From Desulforamulus ferrireducens (GTDB taxonomy: Bacteria; Bacillota; Desulfotomaculia; Desulfotomaculales; Desulfotomaculaceae), in contig NZ_CP019698.1 in the NCBI RefSeq assembly GCF_002005145.1, positions 1,984,001-2,048,000 on the forward strand: 64,000 nt of DNA, written 5' to 3'. A program made the position numbers and the translations under genes. Below the pieces are notes generated by a model. That model did not search any database. It was not told where the DNA came from and was given only the letters and a program-made list of their open reading frames with translations. Below, in pieces: positions 1,243-52,679 of the stretch (position 1 is its first letter; each line of letters starts with the position of its first letter).

Positions 1243-1360
1243 CACCTCATTCAAAAGTCATCTTATAGAAATACAGTATATATTTTAACTATTTTCTGAG
1301 GTTGCTGGCAAAGTGTGTCTGGCCATCTAATTATAGATAATGTAAACTGACTTTTACTAA

Positions 1361-1417
1361 TAAAAACATAGCCGGTAAATGAGATTGAAAGCTAGCGCTC
1401 ACTCCCATTTACCGGCT
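1361..1417 (-). terminator. Intrinsic terminator after pnp
   Basis: A perfect 12-bp inverted repeat (AGCCGGTAAATG at 1370-1381, CATTTACCGGCT at 1406-1417) lies just after the pnp stop. On the minus strand it is followed by ATGTTTTTA, giving a U-run. Confidence 0.82.
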
Positions 1418-24878: not shown

Positions 24879-25106
24879 GGGTATTGTATTATTCACACTC
24901 ACTCCATGCTCCGCGTCTATAACACTAAGGTTCACTCCAGGCGAAATGGGGGGCGCCTCAATTCAACCTCCTGTTTCAGTTCGGCTAGCGCGTACGTCCT
25001 GTGCGCGCTCCCCCCATTTCGCCTTACGTTCACCAAGTGTTATGAACGACGCTGCGCAAGTCGTTCGCTATGAATAACTTGTGCCCCTCTCGGGTATACA
25101 ATACCC
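24879..25106. repeat. Large imperfect inverted-repeat element between proS and ispG
   Basis: Outer arms GGGTATTGTAT (24879-24889) and ATACAATACCC (25096-25106) match perfectly. Inner arms AGGCGAAATGGGGGG (24939-24953) and CCCCCCATTTCGCCT (25010-25024) match over 15 bp. Flanking words (AACACTAAGGTTCAC against GTTCACCAAGTGTT) also pair, and a local stem GAACGAC/GTCGTTC lies in the right half. GC content is higher than in the surroundings. No open frame of note. It fills most of the 368-bp gene-free gap. It resembles a MITE-like or REP-like mobile repeat. Confidence 0.7.
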
Positions 25107-44467: not shown

Positions 44468-45751
44468 TTAGATAAAATAGAAGAAATACAAATAAACAGA
44501 GGAAATAATAATGGAAACTATCATTAGCGGGAAGGCCACTTTCATAAAACCTAGGAAGGTGAACTTAATCCCTTGTTTTTCAGCCATACCTGCCACCACT
44601 ACGTTAGCAGAGGCTCCAATGATGGTACCATTGCCACCCAGACAGGCACCCAGGGAGAGGGCCCACCAAAGCGGTTCCAGATTTGTCATACCACCTAAAC
44701 GTCCCATATCTTGAATTAGGGGAATCATGGTTGCCACAAAGGGAATGTTATCCACAAAGGCAGAGGCAATGGCAGATAACCAGAGAATTAGCATACCGGT
44801 GGTTAGCAATTCCCCGCCGGTTATTTCCAGCGCTTTGGCGGCAATCCACTCAATCACACCCACTTCAACTAGTCCACCAACTAAGATGAATAGACCAGCA
44901 AAGAAGAAAATAACCGGCCATTCCACCGCTTCCAGGGCGTGTTCTGGTTCTTCACGGGTTACCAAAAGCAATAGCGCTGCACCGGCCAGAGCAATGGTTG
45001 CAGATTCCAGATGTAAGTACTGGTGCAACAGGAAACCACCAATAGTTAAGGCTAGAACAAACAAAGACTGCTTGAGGAGCTTTGGATCTTTAATTTCGTC
45101 ATTCTCATTCAGGGCCATGATATTTTGCTTTAACTCTTCACGCACATTAAAGGACTTGCGATAAATTAGCTTTAACAGAAAAATTGTCACAACCATAATG
45201 ACAATAACAACTGGCAGTAAATTCACCACAAAGTCCATAAAACCAAGACCTACAGCAGAACCAATCATGATATTGGGCGGGTCACCAATTAGCGTTGAGG
45301 TACCACCGATGTTGGAGGATAATACCTCTGCAATCAAAATTGGCATGGGGTTTATCTCTAAAGACCTGGCAATAGAGAAGGTTACTGGTACAATTAACAA
45401 CACTGTGGTTACGTTATCCAACAAAGCGGATAATACTGCGGTGATCACCGACAGAGCCACCATAATGGCCACCGGCTCACCTTTACTTAGCTTAGCAGAT
45501 TTTACAGCTAAATACTCAAAAACTCCGGAGCGCCTGGTTATACCCACAATAATCATCATACCAACCAGCAAACCAATGGTATTAAAGTCGATATGATGGA
45601 TAGCCTCTTCTTGGTGCAAAATACCGGTTATTATCAACACCATGGCACCGAATAAAGCTACCACTGTCCTATGGATCTTTTCAGAAATAATGATGGCATA
45701 GGAAAGCAAAAAGACTACGGAAGCGAGAATGACCTGACTGTTTCCCTCCAT
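44468..45751 (-). CDS. ArsB/NhaD-type ion transporter
   Basis: 427 residues, about eleven or twelve membrane segments. NVTTVLLIVPVTFSIARSLE and SNIGGTSTLIGDPPNIMIGS are typical of the ArsB/NhaD (IT superfamily) fold, with a second half AFVDNIPFVATMIPLIQDMG and CLGGNGTIIGASANVVVAGM. Family members move sodium/protons, arsenite or anions; the substrate cannot be told. ATG after GAGGTGACGTAAC. It is downstream of the SLC13 gene, with a hairpin between them. Confidence 0.8.
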   Translation of the reverse strand: MEGNSQVILASVVFLLSYAIIISEKIHRTVVALFGAMVLIITGILHQEEAIHHIDFNTIGLLVGMMIIVGITRRSGVFEYLAVKSAKLSKGEPVAIMVALSVITAVLSALLDNVTTVLLIVPVTFSIARSLEINPMPILIAEVLSSNIGGTSTLIGDPPNIMIGSAVGLGFMDFVVNLLPVVIVIMVVTIFLLKLIYRKSFNVREELKQNIMALNENDEIKDPKLLKQSLFVLALTIGGFLLHQYLHLESATIALAGAALLLLVTREEPEHALEAVEWPVIFFFAGLFILVGGLVEVGVIEWIAAKALEITGGELLTTGMLILWLSAIASAFVDNIPFVATMIPLIQDMGRLGGMTNLEPLWWALSLGACLGGNGTIIGASANVVVAGMAEKQGIKFTFLGFMKVAFPLMIVSIIISSVYLYFFYFI

Positions 45752-45910: not shown

Positions 45911-47359
45911 CTAGTTTATTAAAGCCGGAATGCCAATGATTGGCCAGAATGTTAAGGAGAAAATTGCCACCATGGCCAAGATAGCCAGACTGGCAGGCAC
46001 ACCGGTAGCAAAGAACTCACCAGTGGTAAACTGTTTTGATTGATAAGCTATGGCATTGGGTGCGGCACCAATCAACAGTAGGAAGGGCATACCGGCCATG
46101 GCTACGGAGGAATAGAGAATAATCTCAGGGTTTACTCCCAAGTATTTGGCTATAACCAATGCCACAGGTAAGCAAATGGAAATGGCAGCCACGTTCATAA
46201 TAAAGTTGGTTAATATCAGTACCAGGAAGGATATGCCAAGTACAAAGACCAACCAGGGAGCATCCTGAATCATGGAGAGCCAGCTGACAGCCATCCACTC
46301 AGCAGCCCCGGTTTGCCATAAAGCAAAACCTATACTCATAGCACCGGAGAATAACAAAACGATATTCCAGGAAATGGATCTTTCCAATTCTTTAACAGTT
46401 AGAATTTTGGTAATAAAGAAGATTAAACCGGCAGTAAGCAAGGGAATAGAACGATCCATGCCTTTCAAGGCGGGAATGTAGGCCTGGAAAACTAAAGAAG
46501 CCAAGGCCAGACCAACCACTACCAGAACAAAAATCTCCTGTTTGGTGATGGGACCTAATTTATCTAACTCTTCCTGGGCACGGCTACGCAGACCAGGTAC
46601 TTTAAGTTTTTCAGGCTTAAAAATAGTTATCATTAAAAAGAAAATAAAGATCACGGTAAGCCAACCAAAGGGAGCCAGAGCAGCGGAGAATTCCAAGAAA
46701 GTAACATCTTGACCGGTAAATTCTTTATAGAAACCAACGGCAGCAGGGTTGCGGGCCCCACCCATTAAAGTACAGATACTACCGGCTCCAGCGGCAAAGG
46801 CCATGCCCATAAACATCGCTTTACCAAACTTGCTGGGCTTATCCATGTCGCCACCGTACAGGGCAAGAATTGACATCATAATGGGAAACATAGCTCCGGC
46901 CACTGCGGTATGGGCCATGACGTGGGTCAATAAGGCGGTAAGAACAAATACGCCCAACAGAATTTTCCGCGTATCCTCTCCCACAATTACCAGCATCTTA
47001 TAGGCAATTCTTTTGGTAATACCACATTGGGTAAAGGCAACACCAACTAATAAAGAACCTAAGATAAATAACACTGTGGGATCCATAAAATCACGGAAAG
47101 CCTCTTTAGCAGTGCGAATACCAAATACCGGTTGTAAAACACCAATGGCAATACTGGTAACACCAATGGGAACCACTTCAAAAACCCACCAAATACCGGC
47201 TAACAGGAAAAGTCCGATACCTGCTTTACCAGCTTGAGTTAATTCAAAGGATTTTCCCATGGGGTCCACAGCAGGTGCAAGGGGCGGCATAAAATAAAAC
47301 AGCAGTAACACCGCGATGCCAAGAAAAACAAAGAAATACCTTTTCAAATCACTACTCAC
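45911..47359 (-). CDS. SLC13/DASS-family anion transporter
   Basis: 482 residues, about twelve membrane segments. IWWVFEVVPIGVTSIAIGVL, LTHVMAHTAVAGAMFPIMMS, FAAGAGSICTLMGGARNPAA and the second-half motif MNVAAISICLPVALVIAK match the divalent anion/sodium symporter family (dicarboxylates, sulfate). In a sulfate reducer sulfate uptake would fit, but this is inference. GTG start seven bases after GAGGTG. About 127 bp upstream lies a strong terminator preceded by a sigma-54-like promoter (separate entries), so expression may need readthrough. Confidence 0.85.
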   Translation of the reverse strand: MSSDLKRYFFVFLGIAVLLLFYFMPPLAPAVDPMGKSFELTQAGKAGIGLFLLAGIWWVFEVVPIGVTSIAIGVLQPVFGIRTAKEAFRDFMDPTVLFILGSLLVGVAFTQCGITKRIAYKMLVIVGEDTRKILLGVFVLTALLTHVMAHTAVAGAMFPIMMSILALYGGDMDKPSKFGKAMFMGMAFAAGAGSICTLMGGARNPAAVGFYKEFTGQDVTFLEFSAALAPFGWLTVIFIFFLMITIFKPEKLKVPGLRSRAQEELDKLGPITKQEIFVLVVVGLALASLVFQAYIPALKGMDRSIPLLTAGLIFFITKILTVKELERSISWNIVLLFSGAMSIGFALWQTGAAEWMAVSWLSMIQDAPWLVFVLGISFLVLILTNFIMNVAAISICLPVALVIAKYLGVNPEIILYSSVAMAGMPFLLLIGAAPNAIAYQSKQFTTGEFFATGVPASLAILAMVAIFSLTFWPIIGIPALIN

Positions 47360-47485
47360 GCCAAATCACCTCTTCATGTTTAATAAACTTAATAATGCCG
47401 AAAGACATATTTTATGTAAGATGCTGCTTAGAAAACTATTTCTCGTGCTGCGGCTTACGAGGTTAACCAACACCCCCTTTAAAAC

Positions 47486-47536
47486 AAAAAACCAACGCAT
47501 CTTGAAACACAGGCAAATAATCAAGATAACGTTGGT
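47486..47536 (-). terminator. Intrinsic terminator in the leader of the SLC13 gene
   Basis: ACCAACG...ATCTTGA paired with TCAAGAT...GCGTTGGT, then TTTTTTG on the minus strand. It ends a predicted RNA of about 68 nt that starts near 47553, with the transporter gene 127 bp further. It can also serve as a terminator of the preceding DUF2294 gene, whose stop is at 47631. Confidence 0.78.
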
Positions 47537-47563
47537 TTACTTAAATACCAAGCCAAACGACTC

Positions 47564-47580
47564 TGCATTCCGTCTACCAA
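47564..47580 (-). promoter_or_regulatory. Sigma-54 (-24/-12) promoter before the SLC13 leader
   Basis: Minus strand TTGGTAGACGGAATGCA: GG and GC separated by exactly ten bases, as in the sigma-54 consensus TGGCACG-N4-TTGC. The predicted start is near 47553. It has close kin at 49148-49164. Confidence 0.6.
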
Positions 47581-47630
47581 CATTCCACTAGCATTAACTC
47601 GCTCTAAACCCCCACAGAAGTTAGAGCCAG

Positions 47631-47999
47631 TTAGATTATTTTTAATTTTTTCTCCAAGTCAGTATCCATGATAAAGACTTCAATTTGTTCTCCTGTGCGG
47701 ATACTGATATCTCCATGGCTACTAATAACCTTGCTTTTTGTTATGTCTGTAATAATTTTCTCAATCTGTTCCAGATAAGACTCCCTTAGTTCCATTCTTA
47801 GTTGCTTAACTAAAGCTCGACCTTTCTTGGTAAAACTTACATGTTTTTCTTCTTTTGTTAGCACCCCTTTAGAGCGAAGAATTACCATATCCCTGCAAAT
47901 CAATGCCTTGGTGCTCTCAGGTCCACGCCCAACCAATTCCCGTTGAAACTTGATGAATGACTCACACAATTGCTTTTCTAAAAGCTGCTGCTGACTCAC
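47631..47999 (-). CDS. DUF2294 family protein
   Basis: 122 residues from GTG at 47999, six bases after GGGGGGAGA; a longer upstream reading runs into that site. The segments ELVGRGPESTKALICRDMVI and LRSKGVLTKEEKHVSF are the DUF2294 signature (this family is also annotated as MpsC-like, linked to sodium/bicarbonate uptake systems). The C-terminus is helical then beta (ISSHGDISIRTGEQIEVFIM). It is likely cytoplasmic. A palindrome cluster and a sigma-54-like element lie upstream. Function unknown. Confidence 0.72.
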   Translation of the reverse strand: MSQQQLLEKQLCESFIKFQRELVGRGPESTKALICRDMVILRSKGVLTKEEKHVSFTKKGRALVKQLRMELRESYLEQIEKIITDITKSKVISSHGDISIRTGEQIEVFIMDTDLEKKLKII

Positions 48000-48072
48000 C
48001 TCTAATCTCCCCCCATTCGTCAACATAAAGAAATATAAGGTACTTGCTCCGACAGAGGTGTTTGTTCAAATT

Positions 48073-48088
48073 CGCACAAAGGATACCA
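48073..48088 (-). promoter_or_regulatory. Possible sigma-54 promoter of the DUF2294 gene
   Basis: Minus strand TGGTATCCTTTGTGCG, with GG-N10-GC spacing; the -24 half has TGG-T-A and the -12 half TGC. The predicted start is near 48062, about 63 bp before the gene. Weaker than the other copies. Confidence 0.38.
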
Positions 48089-48153
48089 TTAGAGTATTAT
48101 TGTCACTAAAGCAGATGGCATGAAAACCATTATTTATTATTACAATTGTTATT

Positions 48154-48239
48154 ATGTCAGCAGTATTATGACAAATTCCAATGTCATGTAATGACAAAAC
48201 TTTGTGTCTTAAAGGTACAGATTATAAATAATTCTGTAC
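48154..48239. promoter_or_regulatory. Palindromic operator-like sites upstream of the DUF2294 gene
   Basis: Three palindromes in 86 bp: ATGTCA-N8-ATGACA (48154-48173), TGTCAT-GTA-ATGACA (48182-48196) and GTACAGA-N11-TCTGTAC (48215-48239). They lie 65-150 bp before the sigma-54-like element, the distance usual for activator sites. The stretch 48240-48560 beyond them, within the 757-bp gene-free gap, holds nothing recognisable. Confidence 0.45.
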
Positions 48240-48564
48240 AGTTTTATATCAGCCCATTTATTTAAACTATAACCGGATTCCTCGCTATATTTATTATTTG
48301 TGCCGCATATTGCAGGTTTTAAATTATTTTTATGAATTGGATAAAGAATAGACAGATTCCTATTTTTGTATTTCTTTGTACTTAGCCCGATAAACTCGAT
48401 GCAAAAGGTTTATGACAACCCAAGGCCAGTCAAATAGTCTTGTTAGTGACAACTATTCTTTGACAAGAGCTAGCTGACCATACCCGCCCAGCATTGGCCA
48501 ATACACCAATGATGGTAAGTCAGGATTTGGCAAAGGCTAAAATACTAAGTAATGCCTTATAAAA

Positions 48565-48608
48565 ATAAGAAAACCAGCGTTAGAAAAACAGCCGTTTTCT
48601 AACGCTGG
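48565..48608 (-). terminator. Intrinsic terminator about 150 bp after the cysteine-rich protein gene
   Basis: Perfect 14-bp stem CCAGCGTTAGAAAA / TTTTCTAACGCTGG, then TTTTCTTATTTTT on the minus strand. Upstream, TTGGTAGAATTAAACA (48631-48646) resembles the -24 half of the sigma-54 elements, but its -12 half lacks GC. Confidence 0.75.
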
Positions 48609-48756
48609 CAAACTTACGGTAAGTATTCTTTGTTTAATTCTACCAATTTTATCAATTGAACTAACAACAAGCAAAAGTTTACGCTGTGGGAAAACCATAT
48701 TAGGCTTTACTCATTATTTCACCCTTTTTTGTCAGGGATGTGTTTTGTTGTTTTAT

Positions 48757-49032
48757 TTATATTGCTGAAGGGGCTAATCCTCTATCAAGAAAAAACAGAC
48801 GTTCTTGTTCCTTTAACGGTTCACCGTTTTCACTTTGGCAAATGTAGTTTTGGCAACGGGTGGGAATTAAAGCAATATCAGTAACAATCATGTAATCTAT
48901 TCCCTCAGGCGTTAACCTTCTCACCTCGGATTCTGCATTTTGGATAACTGTTTTAACTATATCAGCAAGTTGCAGCCTAATCTGACAGTTTTCCTTATGC
49001 ACACACTGACCGCATTTTGAGGTACCATTCAT
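48757..49032 (-). CDS. Small cysteine-rich hypothetical protein
   Basis: 91 residues. Cysteines form SKCGQCVHKENC near the start and RCQNYIC in the second half, a likely metal-binding (zinc or iron-sulfur) set of five or so; the middle is helical (LADIVKTVIQNAESEVRRL). ATG nine bases after GAAGGGGG. I do not recognise the family. Its leader is a 62-nt predicted RNA with a terminator 43 bp before the ATG, so there is no room for another promoter between them and expression should depend on readthrough or on release of the terminator. Confidence 0.65.
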   Translation of the reverse strand: MNGTSKCGQCVHKENCQIRLQLADIVKTVIQNAESEVRRLTPEGIDYMIVTDIALIPTRCQNYICQSENGEPLKEQERLFFLDRGLAPSAI

Positions 49033-49075
49033 CCTACGACCCCCTTCATCAATTAAGCTTGACTAAAACGAGACT

Positions 49076-49121
49076 AAAAAACCAGCACGTAAAAACGGCT
49101 CATTTCCTACCGTTGTGCTGG
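49076..49121 (-). terminator. Intrinsic terminator in the leader of the cysteine-rich protein gene
   Basis: CCAGCAC / GTGCTGG perfect outer stem, with an inner AACGG/CCGTT pair, then TTTTTT on the minus strand. It ends a predicted 62-nt RNA that starts near 49137. Confidence 0.78.
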
Positions 49122-49147
49122 CCTACCCAATACCAAGGAAATTCCTT

Positions 49148-49164
49148 CGCATTTAGTCTGCCAA
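49148..49164 (-). promoter_or_regulatory. Sigma-54 (-24/-12) promoter before the cysteine-rich gene leader
   Basis: Minus strand TTGGCAGACTAAATGCG: TTGGCA at -24 and TGC at -12, with the exact ten-base spacing between GG and GC. Shares the core TTGG-AGAC--AATGC with the element at 47564-47580. Confidence 0.62.
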
Positions 49165-49307
49165 TAGCCTAGGTAAAGAGTGACATATGGCTTTGTCTTA
49201 AAATATAGGTTTAGTGAAATTTTGTACAGGTTGAAATTTGCTGTTATTTTAAACTTTATTAAGATTTTCTCGGATATTTAGAAGATTGCTTTTATTTTCT
49301 TAACCAA

Positions 49308-51332: not shown

Positions 51333-52106
51333 TTAAATAATGGCAACAGGCAAACGTAACTTACCATCAACCCTTTTTAACCTGTTGGCATGTAGAATAG
51401 ATTTACAGTTCTCTAATATTTTGTGTTTGAGATACCCCGGCTCCAGTACATCCACTTCACTACCCCACCTGGTTAACAAGCCTGTTAACTCATTAGTCCT
51501 TTTACTTTTCATTTGCAGAATAAAAGAACCATCCCTTTGTCTTTGCCGAGAAACAATTTCCGAGGAGAATGTTTGCGTAACACTGCTAATAACCTTGGCT
51601 GAAACTTTCAGTTTTATATCTTCCCAATGACCCACAGAGGAATCTGAATAAACCATGGTTTGTTTACTTACCGTAATAGCATCTTCCTGGTGATAAGCTA
51701 GAATGGGTATAGAAAAGGGTATGACAATACCTAACTGATTTAGCCAGAGTCTAATAACCAGTTCTTTTAAAAAGAGCTTGGTATAATTAATTTCATTTTT
51801 AATGGTTTCCAAGTCTGCCAGCATATATAAGAAAGGATAATCAGACCTGTTATCTATTTCAGAATTACCTAACAGATATTTACCGGGTGAACCATATCCG
51901 GGATCAGATGTTCTTAAAATTTGATAGCCCAGGTTTTGCAGTTCATTAAGATAACGATATATTTGTCTGATACTAACATTGCACTGACAAGCTAAATGTT
52001 CTAAGGTTGCCCCGCCGTGTTCATTTAATGACCGTAATTCTCGGATAACAATCCCTAAATTACGTTGATGGTTATGCTTAGCTCTCTTCAGTATGCTTCT
52101 TTCCAA
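51333..52106 (-). CDS. HTH / WYL-type transcriptional regulator
   Basis: About 257 residues. An N-terminal helix-turn-helix (LEHLACQCNVSIRQIYRYLN, ELQNLGYQILRTSDPGYGSP), then a WYL-like middle and the WCX C-terminal domain (SSEIVSRQRQRDGSFILQMK, NELTGLLTRWGSEVDVLEPG). The WYL core is degenerate. TTG at 52106, eight bases after GGGG, is the likeliest start; ATG at 52112 is too close to the site. It follows the CBS gene by about 45 bases, so the two are probably one operon under the sigma-54 promoter. It may control SulP downstream. Confidence 0.72.
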   Translation of the reverse strand: MERSILKRAKHNHQRNLGIVIRELRSLNEHGGATLEHLACQCNVSIRQIYRYLNELQNLGYQILRTSDPGYGSPGKYLLGNSEIDNRSDYPFLYMLADLETIKNEINYTKLFLKELVIRLWLNQLGIVIPFSIPILAYHQEDAITVSKQTMVYSDSSVGHWEDIKLKVSAKVISSVTQTFSSEIVSRQRQRDGSFILQMKSKRTNELTGLLTRWGSEVDVLEPGYLKHKILENCKSILHANRLKRVDGKLRLPVAII

Positions 52107-52149
52107 TATCATCACCCCATTTCATACTTGACCCAGCCTGCCACCTCGT

Positions 52150-52644
52150 TTAAGAAAATTTTTCTTTTTCAACCAGTTCGCTAACTTCTTTAAAAATCTC
52201 AACCGTTCTAATCATGCCGACTATATCACCCTTTTCTTCAACCGGTACCATTTCCAAATCCTGGTTCATTAATATATCTATGGCATCTATAATACTGTCC
52301 TGAATTTGTAGCCGTTTGCTTGGTATCGGCCGCATAACTTCTTTTACCTTGCGAGAAGCCTGCTCAAGACATAATTTGGTGAACTTACCATCCCACTGTT
52401 CATCCTTCTCCATTGCCCACAATGAACTGATGATATCTTTAAAACTAAGGGTTCCCACCAGTCTTTTTTGCTTATCGAAAACCAAAATTGAACGGTGCGC
52501 TTGGGAGCCTGCCCTGCAACCTGAATAAAAGGTGTTTTTTAAAACAAACATAGCATCACGCAAGGAGTTTTCCCAAAATACAGTAGCGTAATCCTGGAGG
52601 GGTAACATGATGTCCTTTACTTTTTTATCCTCTTTTCCAGGCAT
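52150..52644 (-). CDS. CBS-domain pair protein
   Basis: 164 residues from ATG at 52644, eight bases after AAGGGG. Two CBS domains, KVKDIMLPLQDYATVFWENS and KVKEVMRPIPSKRLQIQDSI, each with the VMxxP/IMxP entry and the GTLSFKDIISSLW or GMIRTVEIFKEV core. CBS pairs bind adenosine nucleotides or S-adenosylmethionine and sense cell energy state. It lies between the 47-residue small gene and the WYL regulator. The partner it regulates is not evident; the nearby anion transporters are candidates. Confidence 0.82.
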   Translation of the reverse strand: MPGKEDKKVKDIMLPLQDYATVFWENSLRDAMFVLKNTFYSGCRAGSQAHRSILVFDKQKRLVGTLSFKDIISSLWAMEKDEQWDGKFTKLCLEQASRKVKEVMRPIPSKRLQIQDSIIDAIDILMNQDLEMVPVEEKGDIVGMIRTVEIFKEVSELVEKEKFS

Positions 52645-52679
52645 CACCCACACCCCTTACACCAAATCCAAAAACACAC

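Follow-up and report, generated by a model that had tools for sequence, protein, structure and literature searches.

A covarying RNA hairpin overlapping intrinsic terminators beside DUF2294 (MpsC) genes of Desulforamulus: a candidate antitermination switch

Known antitermination systems and the layout of the locus

The closest described systems are the attenuators controlled by the antiterminators LicT, SacY and BglG. As described for them (PMC1489936), the licT regulator gene is followed by the antiterminator (RAT) site and the target genes, an order resembling that of the present locus, where a candidate regulator gene stands beside a short hairpin with internal loops which overlaps the 5' arm of a terminator and precedes transporter or metabolic genes. 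The likeness to the RAT site drawn here is one of layout, namely a hairpin overlapping a terminator beside a regulator gene. The RAT site is about 30 nt long, whereas the hairpin described here has about 50 nt and a different plan of helices and loops, and no sugar PTS genes are present at the loci read. The protein encoded beside it belongs to DUF2294, which we take to be the former name of PF10057, now MpsC in Pfam. In Pfam it matches only this family and none of the BglG-type domains (CAT, PRDs).

The ANTAR proteins also bind RNA and antagonise intrinsic terminators (PMC3369931), which resembles the role proposed below for DUF2294. However, DUF2294 has no ANTAR match in Pfam, and a single hairpin with a non-conserved apical loop is found here. 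The ANTAR RNAs consist of two stem-loops with conserved hexaloops. Terminator-type ON riboswitches share with this locus an aptamer-like hairpin that sequesters the 5' arm of a terminator, but there is no Rfam riboswitch match and the element goes with the DUF2294 gene, not with any single pathway. In Staphylococcus aureus the mpsC gene (of mpsABC) comes behind mpsAB, which encode a bicarbonate transporter, with a weak transcription terminator in between; it is dispensable, with no growth phenotype reported, and elsewhere it is not collocated with mpsAB (PMC6689103). MpsC is of the same Pfam family as DUF2294, and no role involving RNA was proposed for it there (PMC6689103). The open-access literature yielded no report of DUF2294 as a regulator. 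The main text of a 2010 survey of premature terminators does not mention Desulfotomaculum, formate or alcohol dehydrogenase (PMC2965389).

The window, which is the whole 64,000-nucleotide stretch of DNA analysed, comes from a complete genome of 3.24 Mb. Along the minus strand SulP comes first, followed by hairpin B, the Cys-rich gene, mpsC/DUF2294, hairpin A, SLC13 and CitMHS. The features are as follows.

49116-49166, minus strand: putative antiterminator hairpin B, leader of the Cys-rich gene, reading TATTGGCAGACTAAATGCGAAG...CTTGGTATTGGGTAGGCCAGCA (49166-49116) and running into terminator B; from covariance models, covariation and fold
49073-49122, minus strand: intrinsic terminator B, with hairpin 49122-49081 and U-rich tail 49080-49073 TTTTTAGT
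48757-49032, minus strand: gene of a small Cys-rich protein, 3' of hairpin and terminator B, presumed target
47631-48026, minus strand: mpsC/DUF2294 gene (PF10057, Pfam E = 1e-35), candidate RNA-binding antiterminator by its linkage to the hairpin
47530-47582, minus strand: putative antiterminator hairpin A, between mpsC/DUF2294 and SLC13, reading TGTTGGTAGACGGAATGCAGAG...CTTGGTATTTAAGTAAACCAACG (47582-47530) and running into terminator A; parts are P1, purine mismatches, 2 bp, internal loop, P2 and variable apical loop; from the R1/R2 covariance models, covariation and fold
47481-47538, minus strand: intrinsic terminator A, with hairpin 47538-47489 and U-rich tail 47488-47481 TTTGTTTT
45911-47359, minus strand: gene of an SLC13/DASS anion symporter, 3' of hairpin and terminator A, presumed target
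44468-45751, minus strand: gene of a CitMHS-family transporter, next after SLC13, possible target

The 5' arm of terminator A shares 9 nt with the 3' end of hairpin A, and that of terminator B shares 7 nt with hairpin B. The true start of mpsC/DUF2294 may be the GTG at 47999, behind GGGGGGAG. A terminator-like hairpin lies between the SLC13 and CitMHS genes. The Cys-rich protein is restricted to the genus among the relatives searched and has no match in Pfam or NCBIfam. A strong terminator (48573-48609, minus strand) follows its gene; the score of the overlapping hairpin there is unremarkable (z about 1.35, with 2 of 25 shuffles equally strong), and it is therefore likely to be a terminator of the ordinary kind and not a third switch.

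Structure, covariation and distribution of the hairpin

The earlier note had described two matching modules, each made of a sigma-54 promoter, a short RNA and a terminator. The minus-strand words on which it relied, TTGGTAGACGGAATGC (47580-47565) and TTGGCAGACTAAATGC (49164-49149), were confirmed, as were the shared word CTTGGTATT..GTA..CCA(A/G)C at both sites and the intrinsic terminator after each. The 5' TTGG does pair with CCA(A/G) in the arm of the terminator, and this pairing is conserved. The modules themselves stand, and what is strongly supported is the secondary idea of that note, an attenuated leader with the 5' TTGG as antiterminator, and not the sigma-54 promoters making short RNAs.

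From 21 aligned members, 20 of them distinct, the following structure is supported: P1 (UUGGY/RCCAA), then a purine-purine tandem in which G.A occurs, two more pairs, an internal loop, and P2, which contains an R.G mismatch. In general form the hairpin has an outer helix GGN/NCC, a second helix with purine mismatches and a variable apical loop. Double-sided, compensatory changes occur in 6 of the 15 base pairs. The cells changed on both sides number 23, while the shuffles gave 5.8 and none of 500 reached the observed value, in an alignment fitted to the covariance model, which favours the structure somewhat; the pairing is destroyed when the partner strand is slid. In a copy outside the 21, before the second SLC13 gene of genome G007, the lower C-G and R-U pairs are read as U-A and G-C. 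Comparison with Rfam gave no family at gathering score for either hairpin, no credible lower match and no riboswitch family. On the strength of these alignments it is well supported that the modules form a conserved, covarying and previously undescribed RNA hairpin switch.

In all 28 copies examined, including four variants before HTH genes with a different lower stem, the terminator that follows has a 5' arm sharing 7-16 nt with the 3' end of the hairpin. Since the 3' strand of the hairpin is at the same time the base of the terminator, the two structures exclude each other. Two marks of a transcription attenuator, a covarying hairpin and its mutual exclusion with an intrinsic terminator, are found.

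The covariance models, R1 and then R2, detected one to four copies per genome in 9/9 Desulforamulus genomes, with E-values down to 1e-13 per genome; the candidates of the large genome searches were scored in part, so that the counts of the distribution are lower bounds. The homologous leaders sought in related genomes were found: in the sister species, modules stand at the orthologous positions in front of the Cys-rich gene, the first SLC13 gene and, where there is one, the second SLC13 copy. These positions and the E-values show the modules to exceed chance. Outside the genus, the hairpin occurs in two genomes of another family, G038 (39 bits, E = 2e-6) and G013 (24 bits, E = 0.016), in both of which it sits between the DUF2294 gene and the gene of a 108-aa protein. 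In four genomes a weaker variant of the hairpin stands in front of HTH genes at other places; in G000, one of the four, it lies at 598 kb. A pattern scan of contigs matched Desulforamulus, a Desulfotomaculum MAG of the same genus, Peptococcaceae BICA1-7 and four sequences that appear by eye to be chance-like. Most of the phylum-wide covariance-model matches at E 0.02-0.3 were set aside by eye, being inside reading frames or lacking a terminator. One weak match (L120, about 1338-1387, minus strand) is a false positive in a CRISPR-like array with the repeat GTTTCAATCCCTCATAGGTAGGCTGGAAAC. In genome G003, two copies of one transposase-like gene (L073, 7920-8959 and 11170-12216) interrupt the cluster, one of them inside the second SLC13 gene.

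Association of the hairpin with DUF2294 genes

Of 61 genomes, that of the window and those of 60 relatives, the same 11 have both the hairpin and a close DUF2294 ortholog (E below 1e-45 to the window protein), and neither was found in the other 50. The hairpin starts about 50-60 nt past the matched end of the DUF2294 gene in 14 of 15 loci with a close ortholog; in the exception, G005, the Cys-rich and DUF2294 genes are adjacent behind one hairpin. The hairpin variant before an HTH gene is remote from the DUF2294 gene of its genome, a position to be expected if the factor acts in trans. The 11 genomes represent only two clades and their co-occurrence alone is modest evidence, so that distant DUF2294 genes were examined.

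DUF2294 is encoded in 115 of the 398 genomes sampled in the phylum. The downstream flanks of its distant genes contain hairpins that end in the 5' arm of a terminator, for example TTGGCAGACCAAGCAAAGGGCCAATAAATTGGCCAGTTGCAAGGTAGGCCAA in L181. An overlapping hairpin better than 25/25 dinucleotide shuffles was found at 39 of 82 DUF2294 terminators and at 4 of 90 control terminators (p = 2e-11), the latter having been screened for the obvious motif. Outside the genus, the nonredundant set gave 19 of 41 DUF2294 terminators (p = 3e-8). In an unscreened control of 102 terminators there were seven motif matches: four known members, two chance-like sequences and one new member in L153, where it precedes DUF2294. 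When GG-N-[AG]-G ... A-[AG]-N-CC was strictly required together with a terminator, 43 of 112 windows downstream of DUF2294 matched, genus members included, as did 2 of 224 antisense windows. Upstream of DUF2294 this strict scan gave six matches, four of them apparently credible (L153, L156, L219 and L220), with one tRNA and one coding sequence; in L219 the gene is flanked by the strict motif on both sides. No convincing hairpin was found in these tests at roughly half of the DUF2294 genes.

The helix plan P1 - AG|AR - P2 - NN|NN - P3 (about 4 bp) - AG|AG or AA|GG - P4 recurs. It is common to the distant families (GG-N-AG ... AR-N-CC, with purine-rich internal loops), while the paired sequences differ by family. 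In genome G191, a c-di-AMP riboswitch (RF00379, 120 bits; L204 1223-1356, minus strand) lies upstream of a DUF2294 gene. A scan of viral contigs for DUF2294 found none, and a PDB profile search with DUF2294 gave no relative. The AlphaFold model from five sequences had a mean pLDDT of 57.5, too poor for a fold search.

Among the products of genes that follow DUF2294 are Sbt_1 bicarbonate transporters, PEP carboxylase, a PurK-like ATP-grasp protein, AIR carboxylase, a putative carbonic anhydrase, CO dehydrogenase/ACS epsilon, biotin carboxylase, PEPCK, a Proton_antipo_M protein, FdhD, a formate/nitrite transporter, molybdopterin oxidoreductase, KdpA, MFS transporters and many zinc alcohol dehydrogenases. 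The hairpin test was negative at some of these loci (e.g. L165 and L170), so that the list is one of DUF2294 neighbourhoods and not of proven targets. A signal of inorganic carbon or C1 compounds is a lead rather than a result, and the alcohol dehydrogenases and K+ transporters do not simply fit it.

Proposed mechanism and rival explanations

Throughout the phylum the hairpin and DUF2294 genes keep constant company, which suggests that proteins of this family operate the switch. The modules would then be LicT/BglG-like attenuators with DUF2294 as the RNA-binding antiterminator, a reading to which we give a probability of roughly 0.6. The nascent leader RNA would fold either into the terminator or into the mutually exclusive antiterminator hairpin. 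Most likely DUF2294/MpsC would bind the purine-rich internal loops and stabilise the hairpin, in the manner of LicT/BglG at RAT sites, and RNA polymerase would read through into the genes of the SLC13 symporter and the Cys-rich protein; we infer this polarity, in which binding gives readthrough. Against such a role stand the lack of a convincing hairpin at about half of the DUF2294 genes and the absence of a reported growth phenotype for mpsC of S. aureus; moreover, the target genes are diverse, and shared operons alone could produce the association.

In the main rival explanation the module is a riboswitch sensing a metabolite or an ion: the hairpin itself would bind a ligand (e.g. an anion or inorganic carbon) as an ON switch, and DUF2294 would be no more than a frequent operon partner. 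This would agree with a compact conserved hairpin having conserved purines in its internal loops and overlapping a terminator, and with the transporter and carbon genes nearby. However, the element usually stands behind DUF2294 and not in front of it, in operons whose targets are otherwise unrelated, and the helix and loop sequences diverge between families while the link to DUF2294 stays, which is unusual for a ligand pocket. With no match to the riboswitch families of Rfam, we consider this explanation rather improbable. It is less probable still that another trans factor binds the antiterminator, such as the HTH/WCX protein 51333-52115 or a protein of BglG or ANTAR type, with DUF2294 as its partner or sensor. 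HTH genes of the same family do occur in the cluster, and the hairpin variant precedes related HTH genes, but genome G038 has the hairpin and no homolog of 51333 was found in it; this protein was accordingly rejected as the sole trans factor.

The two remaining explanations are both very unlikely. The GG-N10-GC words at both sites and the presence of RpoN (PF04552) in 9/9 genomes of the genus made sigma-54 promoters, followed by short terminated RNAs, a reasonable guess. But the '-12' GC is kept in only 14 of 21 aligned members; in the other seven it is AC with compensated pairing, and one ortholog has GG-N9-GC instead of the N10 spacing, again with the RNA pairing kept. The '-24/-12' bases are the 5' strands of the RNA helices P1 and P2, and as they pair with downstream bases, both must be in the transcript. 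The conserved element being RNA, transcription must start upstream of it, and an RNA of 62-68 nt starting inside the shared word, as the earlier note had supposed, would not contain the 5' strand of either helix, and these strands belong to the parts that covary. Nor does its argument hold that there is no room for another promoter before the gene at 48757-49032, because about 275 nt separate the SulP stop (49441) from the hairpin. A simple scan for sigma-70 promoters gave sites no more frequent than in shuffles. To the same low degree of probability we assign ordinary terminators or DNA operators with chance inverted repeats. It is true that the helices form inverted repeats and that the gene upstream could end at these terminators. 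The widely varying strand distance in the apical helix and the common G-U pairs are nevertheless RNA-like and unlike operators, the control terminators do not have the overlapping hairpin, and SulP already has a separate hairpin-U-tract (about 49343-49303).

With the hairpin, an RNA motif absent from Rfam, a protein family whose role is unknown has for the first time a function that can be tested. If DUF2294 does bind it, this would be an additional antitermination family beside BglG/LicT and ANTAR. Through the recurring neighbours (carbon fixation, bicarbonate, formate and anion transport), a route of signal sensing in these bacteria would become directly testable. A wider proposal, which we regard as doubtful, is that DUF2294 is a large and previously unrecognised family of RNA-binding antiterminators in Firmicutes, sensing inorganic carbon or another C1 or anion signal via a new RNA motif and controlling bicarbonate transporters, carbonic anhydrase, carboxylases, CO dehydrogenase/ACS and formate, anion and alcohol genes.

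Several other features of the window were observed. A stretch after the SulP hairpin-U-tract is conserved in sister species. Upstream of hairpin B (about 49170-49240) and of mpsC (48110-48260), both on the minus strand, there are TGTACA and GACAAA/TTTGTCA-like words, which recur before the same genes in sister species and are possible DNA operators or part of a promoter region. The HTH protein 51333-52115 (minus strand) has a WCX domain and no WYL match in Pfam; short HTH-only relatives occur in the same cluster of several sister species, as well as at other sites in the genome, where they follow the hairpin variant. The protein encoded at 52150-52653 (minus strand) contains a CBS domain and matches CbpB, which binds c-di-AMP, at a score below the cut-off. 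A candidate TwoAYGGAY RNA (RF01731) is located at 24906-25059 (minus strand), with 43.4 bits against a gathering score of 43.
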